From Pseudomonas kermanshahensis (GTDB taxonomy: Bacteria > Pseudomonadota > Gammaproteobacteria > Pseudomonadales > Pseudomonadaceae), in contig NZ_JABWRY020000001.1 of NCBI RefSeq assembly GCF_014269205.2, positions 2,914,001 through 2,978,000 of the forward strand: a DNA stretch of 64,000 nt. Direction: 5' to 3'. Position numbers and translations under genes: made by a program. Of this stretch, positions 22,128 to 28,485 are shown piece by piece (the first letter of the stretch is position 1; every line of letters begins with the position of its first letter). The notes under the pieces are model-generated. The model searched no databases. It worked only from the letters and a program-made list of their open reading frames with translations, and was not told the DNA's origin.

Positions 22128-23423
22128 ATGTCTCCGCGTTTGCTGGCCATGGCGCTGGCGCCCCTGCTCGGGCTTTTCATCATTGCCCTGGGCAACGGTT
22201 TCATGTCTTCCCTGACCACCCTGCGCCTGGGCGCGGCCGGTGAATCAGCCACCACCATCGGTATTGTGTCGTCCAGTTACTTCATTGGCTTGACCCTTGG
22301 CGCGATCTTCAATGACCGGCTGATCCTGCGCATCGGCCATATCCGCGCCTACACCAGCTTCGCCTCGCTGATCGCCGCGACCATCCTGTTGCAAGGGCTG
22401 TTTTACGACACTACGTGGTGGTCGATCCTGCGCCTGATCAACGGCTGGGCTGCGGTGGGCGTGTTCCTGGTGATCGAGAGCTGGTTGCTGCTGGCCGGCG
22501 ACGCGAAAATCCGTGGCCGCTTGCTGGCGCTGTACATGATTGCCTTCTACGGCGCCGGCGTTATTGCCCAGGCAGGCCTTGGCGAAATCACCCGCCTGGG
22601 CGACACCGCGCCGTTCATGCTCGCGGGCATGCTGGCGGCGCTGTCGGTGCTGCCGATCGTGATCCTGCCGCGGGTGTCGCCACTGCTGGACCAGGTCGAA
22701 CCGCTGAAGCCCCGCCAACTGCTGGGGGTGGCGCCGTCGGGTTTGGTCGGCTGCTTCGGTTCGGGGGTGGCGATTGCCGGCATTTATGCGCTGCTGCCGC
22801 TGTACCTCCAACGTATTGGCCTGGACGTGGGCGAGGTCGGCAGCATGATGGCCTGGGTGATCCTGGGTGCGATGCTGCTGCAGTACCCGGTTGGGCGCTG
22901 GTCCGACCGCAAGGACCGCCAGGATGTGCTGATTGCCCTGGCCGGCCTGTGCGTGGTGCTGTCGTTGATTACGGTGTTCTTGCCGTCTGAATCGTCATTG
23001 CTGCCCGCAATGCTGTTCCTGCTGGGTGGCGGCGTGTTCGCCCTGTACCCGGTAGCGGTCAGCCACGCTGCCGACCGTGCACCGTCCGACGCGCTGGTGC
23101 CGATGATCCAGGGCCTGCTGCTGATCAACTCGCTGGGTTCGGCGCTGGCGCCGCTGGCGATTTCGCCGATGATGACGTCGTTTGGCGAGGCCGGGCTGTT
23201 CTGGGCCTTTGCAGCGGTCAACCTGGCCATGGTCAGCTTCTTCCTGTGGCGCCGAGGCAAGCGCCCGGCGGCCGAGCACCCGGCGCCGTTCGCGGCCTCC
23301 ACCACCTTCTCGCCCACTGGTGCCGAGTTGCGGGTGACTGAAGACCTGATGCATGCCGCGCAAGAGCATCCGCCGCTGGAGCCGGTGCAAGGCACAGGGG
23401 CAGCGCAAGCCGAAACCCGATAA
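22128..23423 (+). CDS. MFS transporter, 12 helices
   Basis: 431 residues with about 12 hydrophobic helices and the MFS loop motif between helices 2 and 3 (GAIFNDRLILRIGHIRAY). The tail of about 60 residues is polar and cytoplasmic. The frame opens at 22011, but the ATG at 22128 has a GAGG ribosome site and starts at the first helix (MSPRLLAMALAPLLGLFIIALGNG). The substrate is unknown. A REP palindrome follows the stop. Confidence 0.85.
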   Translation: MSPRLLAMALAPLLGLFIIALGNGFMSSLTTLRLGAAGESATTIGIVSSSYFIGLTLGAIFNDRLILRIGHIRAYTSFASLIAATILLQGLFYDTTWWSILRLINGWAAVGVFLVIESWLLLAGDAKIRGRLLALYMIAFYGAGVIAQAGLGEITRLGDTAPFMLAGMLAALSVLPIVILPRVSPLLDQVEPLKPRQLLGVAPSGLVGCFGSGVAIAGIYALLPLYLQRIGLDVGEVGSMMAWVILGAMLLQYPVGRWSDRKDRQDVLIALAGLCVVLSLITVFLPSESSLLPAMLFLLGGGVFALYPVAVSHAADRAPSDALVPMIQGLLLINSLGSALAPLAISPMMTSFGEAGLFWAFAAVNLAMVSFFLWRRGKRPAAEHPAPFAASTTFSPTGAELRVTEDLMHAAQEHPPLEPVQGTGAAQAETR

Positions 23424-23433
23424 CCCCACCTCG

Positions 23434-23527
23434 GTAGGAGCAGCCCTGTGCTGCGAAGAGGCCAGTGATAGCAGCGAAGATCTGTTGTGTGGTCACCGGC
23501 CTCTTCGCAGCACAAGGCTGCTCCTAC
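23434..23527. repeat. REP-type palindromic repeat, copy 2
   Basis: Same family as copy 1: GTAGGAGCAGCC left arm, GGCTGCTCCTAC right arm, and a spacer that again starts AGTGA and contains AAGATC in the middle. It sits just after the MFS gene stop. Confidence 0.9.
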
Positions 23528-24588: not shown

Positions 24589-24618
24589 TTGAACGCCGCG
24601 CCTGATCTGAAGTAAGCT
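24589..24618 (+). promoter_or_regulatory. Predicted promoter of the aroF leader transcript
   Basis: TTGAAC (24589-24594) and TAAGCT (24613-24618) are 18 bases apart, a reasonable sigma-70 pair. Transcription would start near 24625, shortly before the first leader ORF. Confidence 0.4.
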
Positions 24619-24642
24619 CGGGCTCATTCACTGGAGAGCAAC

Positions 24643-24762
24643 ATGCCGAAACGCACCTGCAATCATGCCAATCACACCGGTCGCACCCTGCGCCCTGTGC
24701 TGGCCGTTGCCGGTTGCAAGGCTCCTGTCAGCTTTTATTTTGGGTATTGGTTTAGCCACTAG
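24643..24762 (+). CDS. Aromatic-rich leader peptide 1 upstream of DAHP synthase
   Basis: A 39-codon ORF with a good ribosome site (GGAG seven bases before ATG). The last ten residues are SFYFGYWFSH: three Phe, two Tyr and one Trp in a row interrupted only by Gly and Ser. This is the signature of an attenuation leader for an aromatic amino acid gene, as in the phe and trp leaders. The stop codon is immediately followed by hairpins and a strong terminator, and the next large gene is DAHP synthase. The regulatory role is inferred. Confidence 0.8.
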   Translation: MPKRTCNHANHTGRTLRPVLAVAGCKAPVSFYFGYWFSH

Positions 24763-24860
24763 GCGCCGCTGATACCCACACGGCGCCCACTTTCGAGGGG
24801 CCGCCGAACATGAGAATACTCAAACCCCCGGTCGGCTCCCCGACCGGGGGTTTTGCTTTT
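24762..24860 (+). terminator. Attenuator region with strong terminator before aroF
   Basis: AAACCCCCGGTCGG (24822-24835), loop CTCC, and CCGACCGGGGGTTT (24840-24853) form a perfect 14-bp stem followed by TTTTGCTTTT. Alternative pairings exist: GGGTAT inside the leader's Gly-Tyr codons (24742-24747) with ATACCC (24772-24777); GGCGCCG (24762-24768) with CGGCGCC (24781-24787); and GGGGCCGCCG (24797-24806) with CGGCTCCCC (24833-24841). The last pairing would break the terminator. These are the parts expected of a ribosome-controlled attenuator. Confidence 0.8.
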
Positions 24861-24901
24861 CAGGCTTTTGAACATTACCGATTTACCTTGAGGACAGATT
24901 C

Positions 24902-25051
24902 ATGAACTACGCCACTTATTACTGCGCAAACACCTATGCCTGGCGATTTAGCCAATCCCGTTCGGGCCAGCCTGCCGCCTCCGATCGGTCCTTCAAGGGT
25001 GGCAACGCTGCAGCCAACACACCTACAACGATCTGTCGAACACCTCGATAG
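24902..25051 (+). CDS. Aromatic-rich small ORF 2 (possible second leader peptide) upstream of DAHP synthase
   Basis: A 49-codon ORF with GAGG eight bases before ATG. The first 16 residues (MNYATYYCANTYAWRF) hold four Tyr, one Trp and one Phe; the rest is polar and unremarkable. It lies after the first terminator and ends 48 bases before aroF. A GC hairpin follows (GACGCGGG/CCCGCCGTC, 25057-25080) but has no T run. It may add a second level of translational or transcriptional control responding to tyrosine. This is an inference from composition and position. Confidence 0.6.
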   Translation: MNYATYYCANTYAWRFSQSRSGQPAASDRSFKGGNAAANTPTTICRTPR

Positions 25052-25099
25052 GGCCGACGACGCGGGCCAGAACCCGCCGTCCGCCCAGGGAAAAACGCC

Positions 25100-26161
25100 A
25101 TGCAAGCCTCGAACCTCGCCCTGCCCCTGAACCAACCGCAAGCTGCCAATACTACCGTCAGCCAGCGCCTGCCCAGCCCCCACCTGCTCAAGCAGCAAAT
25201 GCCGCTGTCCGCTGAGCTGACTCAGCAAGTCCATGCCCACCGCCAGGCCATCCGCGCCATTCTCGAAGGCCGCGACCAACGCCTGTTGGTAGTGGTAGGC
25301 CCCTGCTCGATTCACGACCCTCGCTCGGCGCTGGAATACGCCGACCGCCTGGCCGCGCTGAGCCGCGAAGTGGATGACAAGCTGCTGCTGGTGATGCGCG
25401 CCTACGTCGAAAAACCCCGCACCACGGTGGGCTGGAAAGGCCTGGCCTACGACCCGCACCTCGATGGCAGCGATGACATGCACGCCGGTATCGCCTTGTC
25501 GCGCGGCCTGATGCTGAACATGATCGAGCGCGGCCTGCCCATTGCCACCGAGCTGCTGCAACCGATGGCCGCGGGCTACTTCGACGACCTGCTGGGCTGG
25601 GCCGCGATCGGTGCACGCACCACCGAGTCGCAGGTGCACCGTGAAATGGTCAGTGGCCTGGAACTGCCTGTGGGCTTCAAGAATGGCACCGACGGCGGGA
25701 TTGGCGTCGCCTGCGACGCCATGCGCAGCGCCGCGCACCCGCACCGCCATTTCGGCATGGATGCGCAGGGCTACCCGGCCATCATCGAGACCCTGGGCAA
25801 CCCCGACACCCATTTGGTGTTGCGCGGCGGCCATAAAGGCCCGAACTACGATGCCACGAGCATCGCCCAGGCCCGCCAAGGGTTGGCCAAAGTGGGGTTA
25901 CAGGCGCGGATCATGGTCGATTGCAGCCATGCCAACAGCGGCAAGGACCCAGCGCAGCAGCCCGCGGTATTCGAGAACGTGCTGGCACAGCGCGTGGCCG
26001 GTGACCGTTCGATTGTCGGCGTGATGATCGAAGGGCACCTGTTCGATGGCTGCCAGTCCCTGGGCAAAGGCGCACTGAAGTACGGCGTGTCGATCACCGA
26101 TGGCTGCCTGGGTTGGGCGTCGACTGAAACCCTGTTGCGCGAGGCGGCACAAAAACTGTAG
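25100..26161 (+). CDS. aroF: 3-deoxy-7-phosphoheptulonate (DAHP) synthase, class I
   Basis: 353 residues, the length of the AroF/AroG/AroH type. It condenses phosphoenolpyruvate and erythrose 4-phosphate in the first step of the shikimate pathway. Conserved blocks are present: VVGPCSIHDP, MRAYVEKPRTTVGWKGL, GARTTESQ(V)HREM, GFKNGTDGG, LRGG and DCSHANS. The N-terminal extension of about 35 residues is where this family senses Phe, Tyr or Trp; which effector applies here was not determined. The symbol denotes the isozyme family. Two aromatic-rich leader ORFs and a terminator lie upstream. Confidence 0.93.
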   Translation: MQASNLALPLNQPQAANTTVSQRLPSPHLLKQQMPLSAELTQQVHAHRQAIRAILEGRDQRLLVVVGPCSIHDPRSALEYADRLAALSREVDDKLLLVMRAYVEKPRTTVGWKGLAYDPHLDGSDDMHAGIALSRGLMLNMIERGLPIATELLQPMAAGYFDDLLGWAAIGARTTESQVHREMVSGLELPVGFKNGTDGGIGVACDAMRSAAHPHRHFGMDAQGYPAIIETLGNPDTHLVLRGGHKGPNYDATSIAQARQGLAKVGLQARIMVDCSHANSGKDPAQQPAVFENVLAQRVAGDRSIVGVMIEGHLFDGCQSLGKGALKYGVSITDGCLGWASTETLLREAAQKL

Positions 26162-26522: not shown

Positions 26523-26555
26523 TACCAGGTTGTTCCTCAGGAACGACTCAGCCTC

Positions 26556-26644
26556 TGTAGGAGCAGCCTTGCGCTGTGAAGTGGCCCGGCCGGGCAATTT
26601 CGTTGACCGTGCTGACGCCTTCGCAGCACAAGGCTGCTCCTACA
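26556..26644. repeat. REP-type palindromic repeat, copy 3 (divergent middle)
   Basis: The outer arms TGTAGGAGCAGCCTTGCGCTG and CAGCACAAGGCTGCTCCTACA are conserved, but the spacer is unlike that of the other four copies. It is inserted immediately upstream of the yejA-like gene; that gene's frame stays open through the repeat. Confidence 0.88.
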
Positions 26645-26649
26645 AGGGC

Positions 26650-28485
26650 TTGTATCGCCTGGGCTGGCTGGTTTTGTTTCTGTGCTTTTCCGTCAACACC
26701 CACGCTGCACCCACCCACGCGTTGACCGTCTACGGCGAAGCCCCCCGCTACAACCAAAACTTCCACCATTTCGACTACACCAACCCCAACGCCCCCAAGG
26801 GCGGCATATTGCGCCGCTCGGCCATGGAGATTGGCCAGTTCGACCATGTTCTGCCGTACATCGACAAAGGCATCGGCGTCAACGAAGTCGATGGTTGGCT
26901 GTACGCGCCATTGGCCGTGCGCTCATTCGATGAACCCTACACCGTCTACGGCCTGATTGCCCGGCGCATGGAACGTGGCCCGGACGATGCCTGGCTGCGC
27001 TTCGAGATCGACCCCCGCGCCACCTTCGCCGACGGCAAGCCGGTGCGCGCCGAAGACGTACGCTTTACCTTCGAGCTGCTGATGAGCAAAGGCAGCCTCA
27101 AGTACCGCACCCAGTTCGCCGAGGTCGCTGGGGTTACCGTAGAGGGCCCGCATCGCGTGCGCTTCGACTTCAGGCAACCCCATGGCCGCACCCTGCCCTT
27201 GGACTTGGCCAGCCTGCCGGTGCTGCCCGAGCATGACTGGCAACAACGCGATTTCGCCAACGGCGCCGGCTTCGACAAACCGGTCGGCAGCGGCCCGTAC
27301 CGCATCGGCCAGATCGACAATGGCCGCAGCATCAGCTTTGAACGTGACCCAACCTGGTGGGCCAAAGACCTCCCCGTCAGCCGTGGCCGCTACAATTTCG
27401 ACACGCTGCGCATCGAATACTTCGGCGACACCGAAGTGGCGCGGCAGGTGCTGAAAGGGGGCGGCTACGATTACAACCGCGAGTTTTCTGCCACGGCCTA
27501 CACCCTCGGCTACAACGGCGCGCAGCTGGACGACGGCCGTCTGCAGCGCGCGCACCTGGGCCCGGCCAAACCGCAGGTTGCCCAAGGTTATGTGTTCAAC
27601 CTGGACAAACCGCCGTTTCGCGACCGCCGCGTGCGCCAGGCGCTGGGCATGCTCTGGGACTACGAGTGGAGCAACCGGCAGATGATGCGCAACCTCTACA
27701 TCCGCCAGCAGAGCGTGTTTTCCAACACCCCACTGGCCGCCCGCGTATTGCCCGACGTCAGCGAACTCGAACTGCTGGAGCCATTACGCGGCAAGGTGCC
27801 AGATGAGGTCTTCGACCGCGTGTTCACCGCCCCGGTCACCGATGGCACGGGCATCATCCGCACGCAACAGCTGCAAGCGTTGGCCTTGTTGCAGCAAGCC
27901 GGCTGGCACCCCGAGGGTGACCGCCTGGTGAACGCCCAAGGCGAGCCGCTGGAATTCACCTTCCTCAACGGCCAGGCTGGCCTGGAACGCCTGCTGCTGC
28001 CATGGAAGCGCAACCTGGCGCAGATCGGCGTCACCCTGAACATCCGCAATGTCGACTCGGCCCAATACGTCAACCGCCTGATGGCGCGTGACTACGACAT
28101 GATCGTGACCGGCTACCCAGTCACGCTGTCGCCGGGGGCCGAGCTGTACAACTACTTCGGTTCGGCAGCGGCCCACGACCCCGGCTCGAACAACCTGATG
28201 GTGCTGCAGGACCCTGCAGTGGACAGCCTGATCGACGGCCTGGTACGCGCCAGCACGCAAGCCGACATGCTGCGCCATGCCCATGCCCTGGACCGCGTGC
28301 TGCAGTGGAACTACTACTGGATCCCCAACTACTACCCGCCCGGCAGCTCCACGGCCTGGTGGAACCGCTTTGGCTTGCCCAAGGTTCAGGCCACCTATGA
28401 CGAAGGCCTCGACACCTGGTGGGAAGTCAGCCCTACCCCGCTGACCAACGCGCAGATGGCCGAACGCCTGAAGGCCTCACCATGA
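26650..28485 (+). CDS. ABC transporter extracellular solute-binding protein, family 5 (YejA-like)
   Basis: A family 5 peptide-binding protein of about 611 residues. [20 protein letters not shown] is a signal peptide, after which [30 protein letters not shown] matches the YejA start. The start codon is uncertain: the frame is open from 26530, but the part before 26650 is translated REP sequence. The TTG at 26650 is the first codon that opens directly on the signal peptide, yet it has no well-spaced ribosome site. Four-base overlap with yejB. In E. coli YejABEF imports peptides such as microcin C. Confidence 0.85.

Follow-up and report, generated by a model that had tools for sequence, protein, structure and literature searches.

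The DNA ahead of a type I DAHP synthase gene (AroF/G/H family; NCBIfam NF009395 and TIGR00034 above cut-off) in Pseudomonas kermanshahensis raises the question whether and how this gene is controlled by the supply of aromatic amino acids. The gene occupies positions 25100-26161 of the window, the 64,000-nt stretch of DNA that was analysed, and all coordinates given here refer to the + strand unless stated otherwise. A preliminary description had proposed a well-initiated 39-codon ORF ending in SFYFGYWFSH, followed by a perfect 14-bp terminator and located right upstream of the enzyme. ORF and terminator are present as described. The ORF, leader peptide 1 (LP1, MPKRTCNHANHTGRTLRPVLAVAGCKAPVSFYFGYWFSH), extends from an ATG at 24643 to 24762 with the stop codon at 24760, and the ATG is preceded by the Shine-Dalgarno sequence GGAG at 24633-24636. 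The intrinsic terminator, formed by segments E and F at 24822-24853, consists of 14 pairs with a 4-nt loop and is followed by a T tract. The position relative to the enzyme has to be corrected: about 250 nt separate the end of the terminator from the DAHP synthase ATG at 25100, and this gap contains a second ORF with aromatic codons, leader peptide 2 (LP2).

Part of the region proved to be catalogued already. Positions 24729-24850 match the Rfam family RF00627, 'Pseudomonas sRNA P15', with 115.4 bits (E 6.2e-23; gathering cut-off 70 bits). At this level of similarity, 115 bits, sequence and structure of P15 and of the leader in the window are the same, but Rfam types P15 as a gene, and neither a leader ORF nor control codons nor an alternative structure are given in its entry. 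The consensus structure in Rfam is composed of two helices, A:B and C:D, and the terminator. This is the termination conformation, and the Rfam entry therefore describes the terminated form. We take P15 most plausibly to be the leader of the DAHP synthase mRNA in its terminated form, which is present in Rfam without the attenuator explanation. Of the literature passages that mention it, one names P15 as an sRNA that Livny et al. found in P. aeruginosa (PMC2375449), and another proposes a possible riboswitch on the basis of its synteny with a TPP riboswitch (PMC2527527). A term search of a 2010 survey of premature terminators (PMC2965389) returned neither P15 nor DAHP. Another Pseudomonas sRNA of Rfam, P9, was matched at 2117-2190 on the minus strand of the window (84.6 bits).

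P15 was found in 244 of the 298 Pseudomonadaceae genomes examined, in 10 of 145 genomes of an order sample, and in 5 of 274 class genomes, the source genome being counted and three of the five matches being below cut-off. A subset of all P15 loci, 128 in total (68 plus 60), was studied, of which five (L065-L069) are from outside Pseudomonadaceae; L061, an antisense echo of another match, was dropped before all counts. A DAHP synthase gene is located downstream in all 128 loci, and in 126 of them the LP1 search anchor lies upstream in the same orientation. A core set of 123 loci omits L039, L057, L058, L092, and L094, which did not match the anchor or terminator pattern or, in the case of L057, had the upstream DNA cut off; LP1 and LP2 are nevertheless visible in L039 and L058, and LP2 in L092. 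Within the order sample, 12 genomes contain an orthologue of the enzyme with at least 60% identity, and all 10 P15 matches are among these. None of the 133 genomes of this sample devoid of the orthologue has P15, and in the two orthologue genomes negative for P15 (G423 and G368) a leader of this type was recognized by eye. For 20 of the 54 P15-negative genomes of the family, the enzyme region was checked. Each of them yielded a single enzyme match, the paralogue, with 52-55% identity; an LP1 or LP2 motif was detected upstream in none of the 20, and a short ORF with aromatic residues passed a loose filter in five.

A scan of named records with the P15 core pattern revealed at least 80 loci. Among the matches listed, 75 have enough flanking sequence, and these contain the enzyme motif in 75, the terminator pattern in 73, and LP2 in 74 cases. 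According to the record titles, the matches listed are nearly all from Pseudomonas or Stutzerimonas; they also include an unclassified gammaproteobacterial bin and a bin assigned to Alcanivorax (L213), in which LP2 was not found. One of the class matches below cut-off, L181, has the leader, the terminator, and a 58% identical enzyme, with no LP2 evident, while the weakest, L182 (28 bits vs the 70-bit cut-off), has no such enzyme within its 3 kb. In family f20 (L163-L166), a different, highly aromatic leader (VFFWWFGYGFYFSQ in L163) and a terminator directly precede a more distant DAHP synthase gene, and no LP2 is evident in these four loci.

These data bear on the possibility that P15 is a trans-acting sRNA which is located before the DAHP synthase gene by chance and contains the ORF incidentally. 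Its typing as a gene in Rfam and the passage reporting its detection as an sRNA in P. aeruginosa (PMC2375449) would fit such a role, but P15 is linked to one DAHP synthase orthologue in the loci examined, and it combines a conserved ORF and Shine-Dalgarno sequence with nearly invariant aromatic codons and mutually exclusive pairings, which makes a purely trans-acting RNA very unlikely. A role in trans of the released leader could be compatible with attenuation.

The closest PDB sequence to the DAHP synthase is the Tyr-sensitive enzyme 6agm. The genome from which the window is derived carries the genes for both the orthologue and the paralogue, and both proteins have Gly at the putative Phe-/Tyr-sensitivity site, a position which we take to separate Phe-sensitive from Tyr-sensitive DAHP synthases, so that this residue does not assign the enzyme to a feedback class. 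With the filter used, no aromatic leader was detected at the second type I DAHP synthase gene (G000:C1:3769800-3770813). The Rfam sRNA P14 (L091, 3195-3339) is located about 0.7 kb downstream of this second gene. On both sides of the locus in the window, at about 23350-23500 and at 26530-26850, ORF translations on both strands repeat the phrases VGAALCCE.. and AAQGCSY, which suggests dispersed palindromic repeats.

LP1 is readable with an in-frame ATG in 123 of the 128 loci, and a full GGAG precedes it in 120 of these. Its first two thirds are free to vary in sequence and length, and its end, [YF][YF][FY]GYWFS, is nearly constant, the YWF part having doubled as search anchor. Phe, Tyr, and Trp are all present near the C-terminal end in each of the 123 readable peptides. 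Codon usage in LP1 differs from that of the enzyme gene: TTT accounts for 77% of the Phe codons vs 10%, and TAT for 86% of the Tyr codons vs 17%. The sequence TTTAGC follows the aromatic codons in both leaders (24751-24756 and 24947-24952) and in many relatives; read in the -1 frame, this sequence gives an immediate TAG. Upstream of LP1, a putative promoter was recognized by its match to the consensus, TTGAAC (24589-24594) and TAAGCT (24613-24618) with a spacer of 18 nt, 54 and 30 nt 5' of the LP1 ATG. In 114 of 123 scored loci, the best-scoring -10-like box precedes the ATG by 28-32 nt, with scores of only 6-9 of 12, and a stricter promoter scan of the window found no promoter.

Comparison and computation yield a conserved ORF, a promoter-like box, a terminator, alternative pairings, and linkage to one gene. 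Judged from sequence and modelling, LP1 and the P15 region appear to control the DAHP synthase gene as a ribosome-mediated transcription attenuator built like that of the his operon, a reading to which we assign a probability of about 0.84. Segment A (24741-24751), which contains the control codons, is predicted to pair with B (24768-24778), and segment B' (24762-24771) is predicted to pair with C (24779-24787) if a ribosome stalls on the aromatic codons. Segment C (24779-24788) may therefore have B' as partner upon stalling or D (24796-24806) upon termination, and D is predicted to pair either with C or, as antiterminator, with E (24829-24838). Transcription would start just before LP1. A shortage of Phe-, Tyr-, or Trp-tRNA would stall the ribosome on F-Y-F-G-Y-W-F, where it would cover segment A; B' would then pair with C, D would pair with E, the 5' arm of the terminator, and the RNA polymerase would proceed into LP2 and the DAHP synthase gene. 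With all three aromatic amino acids plentiful, the ribosome would reach the stop codon and leave, C:D and then the terminator E:F would form, and a short RNA would be released, the one catalogued as P15. Without translation of LP1, A:B and C:D would form and the terminator would win. Stalling, switching in the cell, and release of P15 by attenuation are what we infer from the arrangement.

The competing pairings claimed in the preliminary description were recovered when RNAs ending in the 5' arm of the terminator were folded either free of ribosomes or with the Tyr codon or the stop codon occupied by one: in these truncated leaders, A:B, B':C, C:D, and D:E each form in different predicted ribosome states. 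For 67 non-redundant leaders (L051 and L068 were left out) compared with 268 dinucleotide shuffles, A:B was predicted without a ribosome in 55 leaders vs 109 shuffles, B':C on stalling in 61 vs 66, D:E on stalling in 58 vs 52, and C:D at the stop codon in 65 vs 59. The composite switch was obtained with 28 of the 67 leaders vs 2 of the 268 shuffles, the strict composite being missed by 39 leaders, and upon inclusion of the untranslated state with 23 leaders vs none of the shuffles. An unspecific antiterminator measure, which counted any pairing of E, gave no separation between leaders and shuffles, and helix-specific measures were used instead.

The position of the stalled ribosome was then varied codon by codon in the 67 leaders, and readthrough pairing was defined as B':C and D:E with at least three pairs each. 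At A-site offsets from -12 to +6, seven codons representing the aromatic run plus one Gly, it was predicted in 35 to 58 leaders, at offsets from -21 to -15, the three codons before the run, in 7 to 15, and from +9 onward in none. The predicted readthrough window is therefore strongest over the conserved [YF][YF][FY]-G-Y-W-F codons. In a cruder scan of 26 loci of a further family, f36, the peak was at Tyr and Trp (25 of 26), with 7 of 26 at +6; the upstream edge was not sharp, 17 of 26 being positive already at -21. A different sensor has to be considered, since the synteny with a TPP riboswitch had led to the proposal of a riboswitch, as stated in the passage on P15 (PMC2527527): a metabolite-binding riboswitch or a protein-binding leader would control the terminator, and LP1 would not be involved in sensing. 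This explanation is highly improbable, since the conserved residues are encoded by codons for the products of the pathway, all in a single reading frame and at the centre of the stall window, and since none of the riboswitch families attained its cut-off in the window. The attenuation by Phe, Tyr, and Trp proposed before receives support from the conserved run, pairings, and downstream gene and from the overlap of the readthrough window with the codons. The proposal was incomplete; identity with P15 and the presence of LP2 had been missed. A lack of conservation of the aromatic run or of the alternative pairings, named as an observation against the proposal, was looked for and did not occur.

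The stop-codon state turned out to depend on the ribosomal footprint. With a mask up to +12, C:D was dominant, being predicted in 65 of 67 leaders and D:E in 23. D:E rose from +13 on, to 46 of 67 leaders at +13 and 58 of 67 at +15, so that a ribosome lingering at the stop codon would not favour the terminator. The model consequently requires that the ribosome leaves the stop codon or that its footprint is short, and because of this dependence the probability of the LP1/P15 attenuator was slightly lowered, from 0.87 to the value given above. The stop codon of the leader in the window (24760) is located 9 nt earlier than in most relatives.

Covariation, recommended as a check by the preliminary description, was detected for one helix. 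In a fixed register, the terminator has 14 cells with changes on both sides, a number reached in none of 300 shuffles. No covariation beyond that of shuffles was found for A:B, B':C, C:D, and D:E in this register, in which the alternative helices are nearly invariant; B':C, for example, is 83% paired and has one both-side cell, which was reached in 179 of 300 shuffles. Segment A differs in 15 of 125 loci. A clearly matching change in B is present in six (L058, L060, L068, L069, L138, L142), a slight one in two, and none in seven, among them L054, L056, and L059, in which A:B is very weak. RNAalifold applied to a MAFFT alignment recovered only parts of the leader helices because the loops shift.

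The second ORF, LP2 (MNYATYYCANTYAWRFSQSRSGQPAASDRSFKGGNAAANTPTTICRTPR, 24902-25051), follows the Shine-Dalgarno sequence GAGGA at 24890-24894. It is present between terminator and enzyme gene in 126 of the 128 P15 loci, 124 being detected by motif and two by eye, and is missing from L065 and L067, both of family f43. At least four of the five GAGGA positions are matched in 122 of the 124 loci. In the window, many Tyr codons are followed by Trp-Arg-Phe codons at 24941-24949. Among the 124 peptides, aromatic residues amount to 30% before the Trp-Arg-Phe search motif (37% including the motif) and to 1.5% after it, 123 contain Phe, Tyr, and Trp, and the median number of aromatic codons is six. 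In the aromatic part, residue order differs between peptides and composition is retained; TGGCGATTT is nearly invariant, partly because it served as search motif. CGA represents 289 of 702 Arg codons in LP2 vs 78 of 2220 in the enzyme gene. Database searches revealed 42 homologues of LP2, the named ones being hypothetical or uncharacterised. Long forms of LP2 have a conserved tail, RSxQxA(S/T)S(D/G)R..GG, which is lost in short forms. The stop codon is TAG in 113 of 124 loci, and CGAACAC is found within the last 24 nt in 98 of 124 (in the window, for example, at 25037-25051); together this looks like a constraint at the nucleotide level close to the stop codon.

From these properties we infer that LP2 may act as a second aromatic-codon sensor after the terminator. 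LP2 could also be a short coupled ORF, or encode a small functional protein, whose role is to sustain translation of DAHP synthase without sensing anything. The tail conserved in long forms fits this view, as does the spacing in f36, where the LP2 stop is -4 to 5 nt from the enzyme start in 13 of 18 loci with an assigned start. Such a function leaves unaccounted for that aromatic residues are enriched before Trp-Arg-Phe only, that all three aromatic amino acids occur in 123 of 124 peptides, and that composition is kept while residue order changes; moreover, the tail is gone from short forms, and its RNA forms helices of its own. It is regarded as somewhat unlikely.

These helices, X and Y, belong to a predicted pseudoknot-like element inside LP2 at 24959-25003, in which X (24959-24965 with 24981-24987) has six of seven pairs in the window and Y joins 24974-24979 with 24998-25003. 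The element is best seen in f36, possibly Halomonadaceae by our guess, from which 30 loci were sampled in 41 genomes. LP1 plus terminator was found by pattern in 28 of them, LP2 in 27, and both in 25. Nine nucleotides after the LP2 Phe codon, an H-type pseudoknot with interleaved helices X and Y is predicted. The alignment comprises 25 of the 27 LP2 loci, the other two not fitting the search pattern; 99.4% of the cells are paired in these 25 sequences vs at most 56% when the arms are slid, and the covariation score was reached in 1 of 500 shuffles. Changes on both sides are confined to two cells, a number attained by 2 of 500 shuffles, and a slid control, +3, has four such cells, so that the support for the pseudoknot comes mainly from conserved complementarity. 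Among the P15 loci, 51 long LP2s were counted, 50 from Pseudomonadaceae. In these 50, Y is kept at the same distance throughout, and X has one (42) or two mismatches (8); the sole perfect X among the 51 is that of L068 from f36. By inspection, the X/Y element is absent from short LP2s.

A hairpin, Z, occupies 25051-25086 between the LP2 stop codon and the Shine-Dalgarno sequence of DAHP synthase (25087-25091). In loci in which 30 nt or more separate the LP2 stop from the enzyme ATG and Z fills the gap to the Shine-Dalgarno sequence, 99 distinct sequences gave a mean z of -3.2, with 83 of 99 below -2. In L058 to L060, the distance between LP2 stop and enzyme is only 15 nt, leaving no room for Z. 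A scan of the window found no second intrinsic terminator after LP2. A Rho site in the LP2 tail was set aside, since by our own reasoning it would act in the direction opposite to that expected of a biosynthetic gene; an excess of C over G of at least 0.2 was seen in 44 of 73 short forms and only 2 of 51 long forms. LP2 might also attenuate at the level of translation, with a ribosome stalled on it exposing the Shine-Dalgarno sequence of the enzyme via secondary structure. In 49 of 118 loci, the Trp-Arg-Phe region of untranslated LP2 is base-paired with the stretch from the Shine-Dalgarno sequence to the AUG; stalling raises the openness of the AUG region from 0.53 to 0.71, and the f36 element contains an anti-Shine-Dalgarno-like CCTCCG. 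However, accessibility of the Shine-Dalgarno sequence itself showed no consistent change with ribosome position, being 0.50 without a ribosome, 0.44 upon stalling, and 0.44 at the stop codon, and a further folding profile was flat, which renders this mechanism unlikely.

That the presumed LP2 sensor acts on translation of DAHP synthase in some way is a guess, to which we give a little less than even odds; an action at this level would be the most likely one because LP2 is located 3' of the one terminator detected and near the start of the enzyme gene. Taken together, we tentatively propose two successive codon-reading sensors in Pseudomonadales, LP1 acting on transcription, and a pause on LP2, with its Tyr-rich part, Trp-CGA-Phe, and the pseudoknot of the long form, gating translation or stability of the enzyme message. 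If so, the pseudoknot and a slow CGA codon may amplify the sensitivity to the charging of three tRNAs at once. With the attenuator, a catalogued 'sRNA' common to 244 of 298 Pseudomonadaceae genomes gains a testable function, and the entry into the pathway may respond to all three aromatic end products through one peptide. If LP2 is a second sensor, one gene would be read twice, before and after a terminator; we know of no amino acid biosynthesis gene for which this applies. Searches of the open-licence literature brought up no description of the P15 leader as an attenuator, of LP2, or of a gene read twice.

The arrangement of LP1 and P15 shares control codons, alternative hairpins, and a terminator with the his, phe, and trp leaders of enterobacteria, and the chain of segments A to F resembles the his leader. 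The Rfam family His_leader (RF00514) gave a weak, chance-level match in the window (20 bits, cut-off 49). Unlike the enterobacterial leaders, LP1/P15 contains codons for three amino acids instead of one, precedes the gene for the entry enzyme, and is followed by a second leader in tandem. Judging from the passages on aroR-aroF of Corynebacterium glutamicum (PMC4046766, PMC11802643), this is the closest described case: a DAHP synthase gene preceded by a Phe-Tyr-Phe leader and subject to attenuation, with induction under Phe limitation according to a review passage. Likened by description, both systems have mixed aromatic codons and attenuation before DAHP synthase. C. glutamicum is an Actinobacterium, however, and these passages mention neither a Trp codon nor a second leader, in contrast to the P15 locus. 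The kind of attenuator is known, a sensor for three amino acids is unusual, and the tandem LP2 with the predicted pseudoknot of its long form makes the whole arrangement new.
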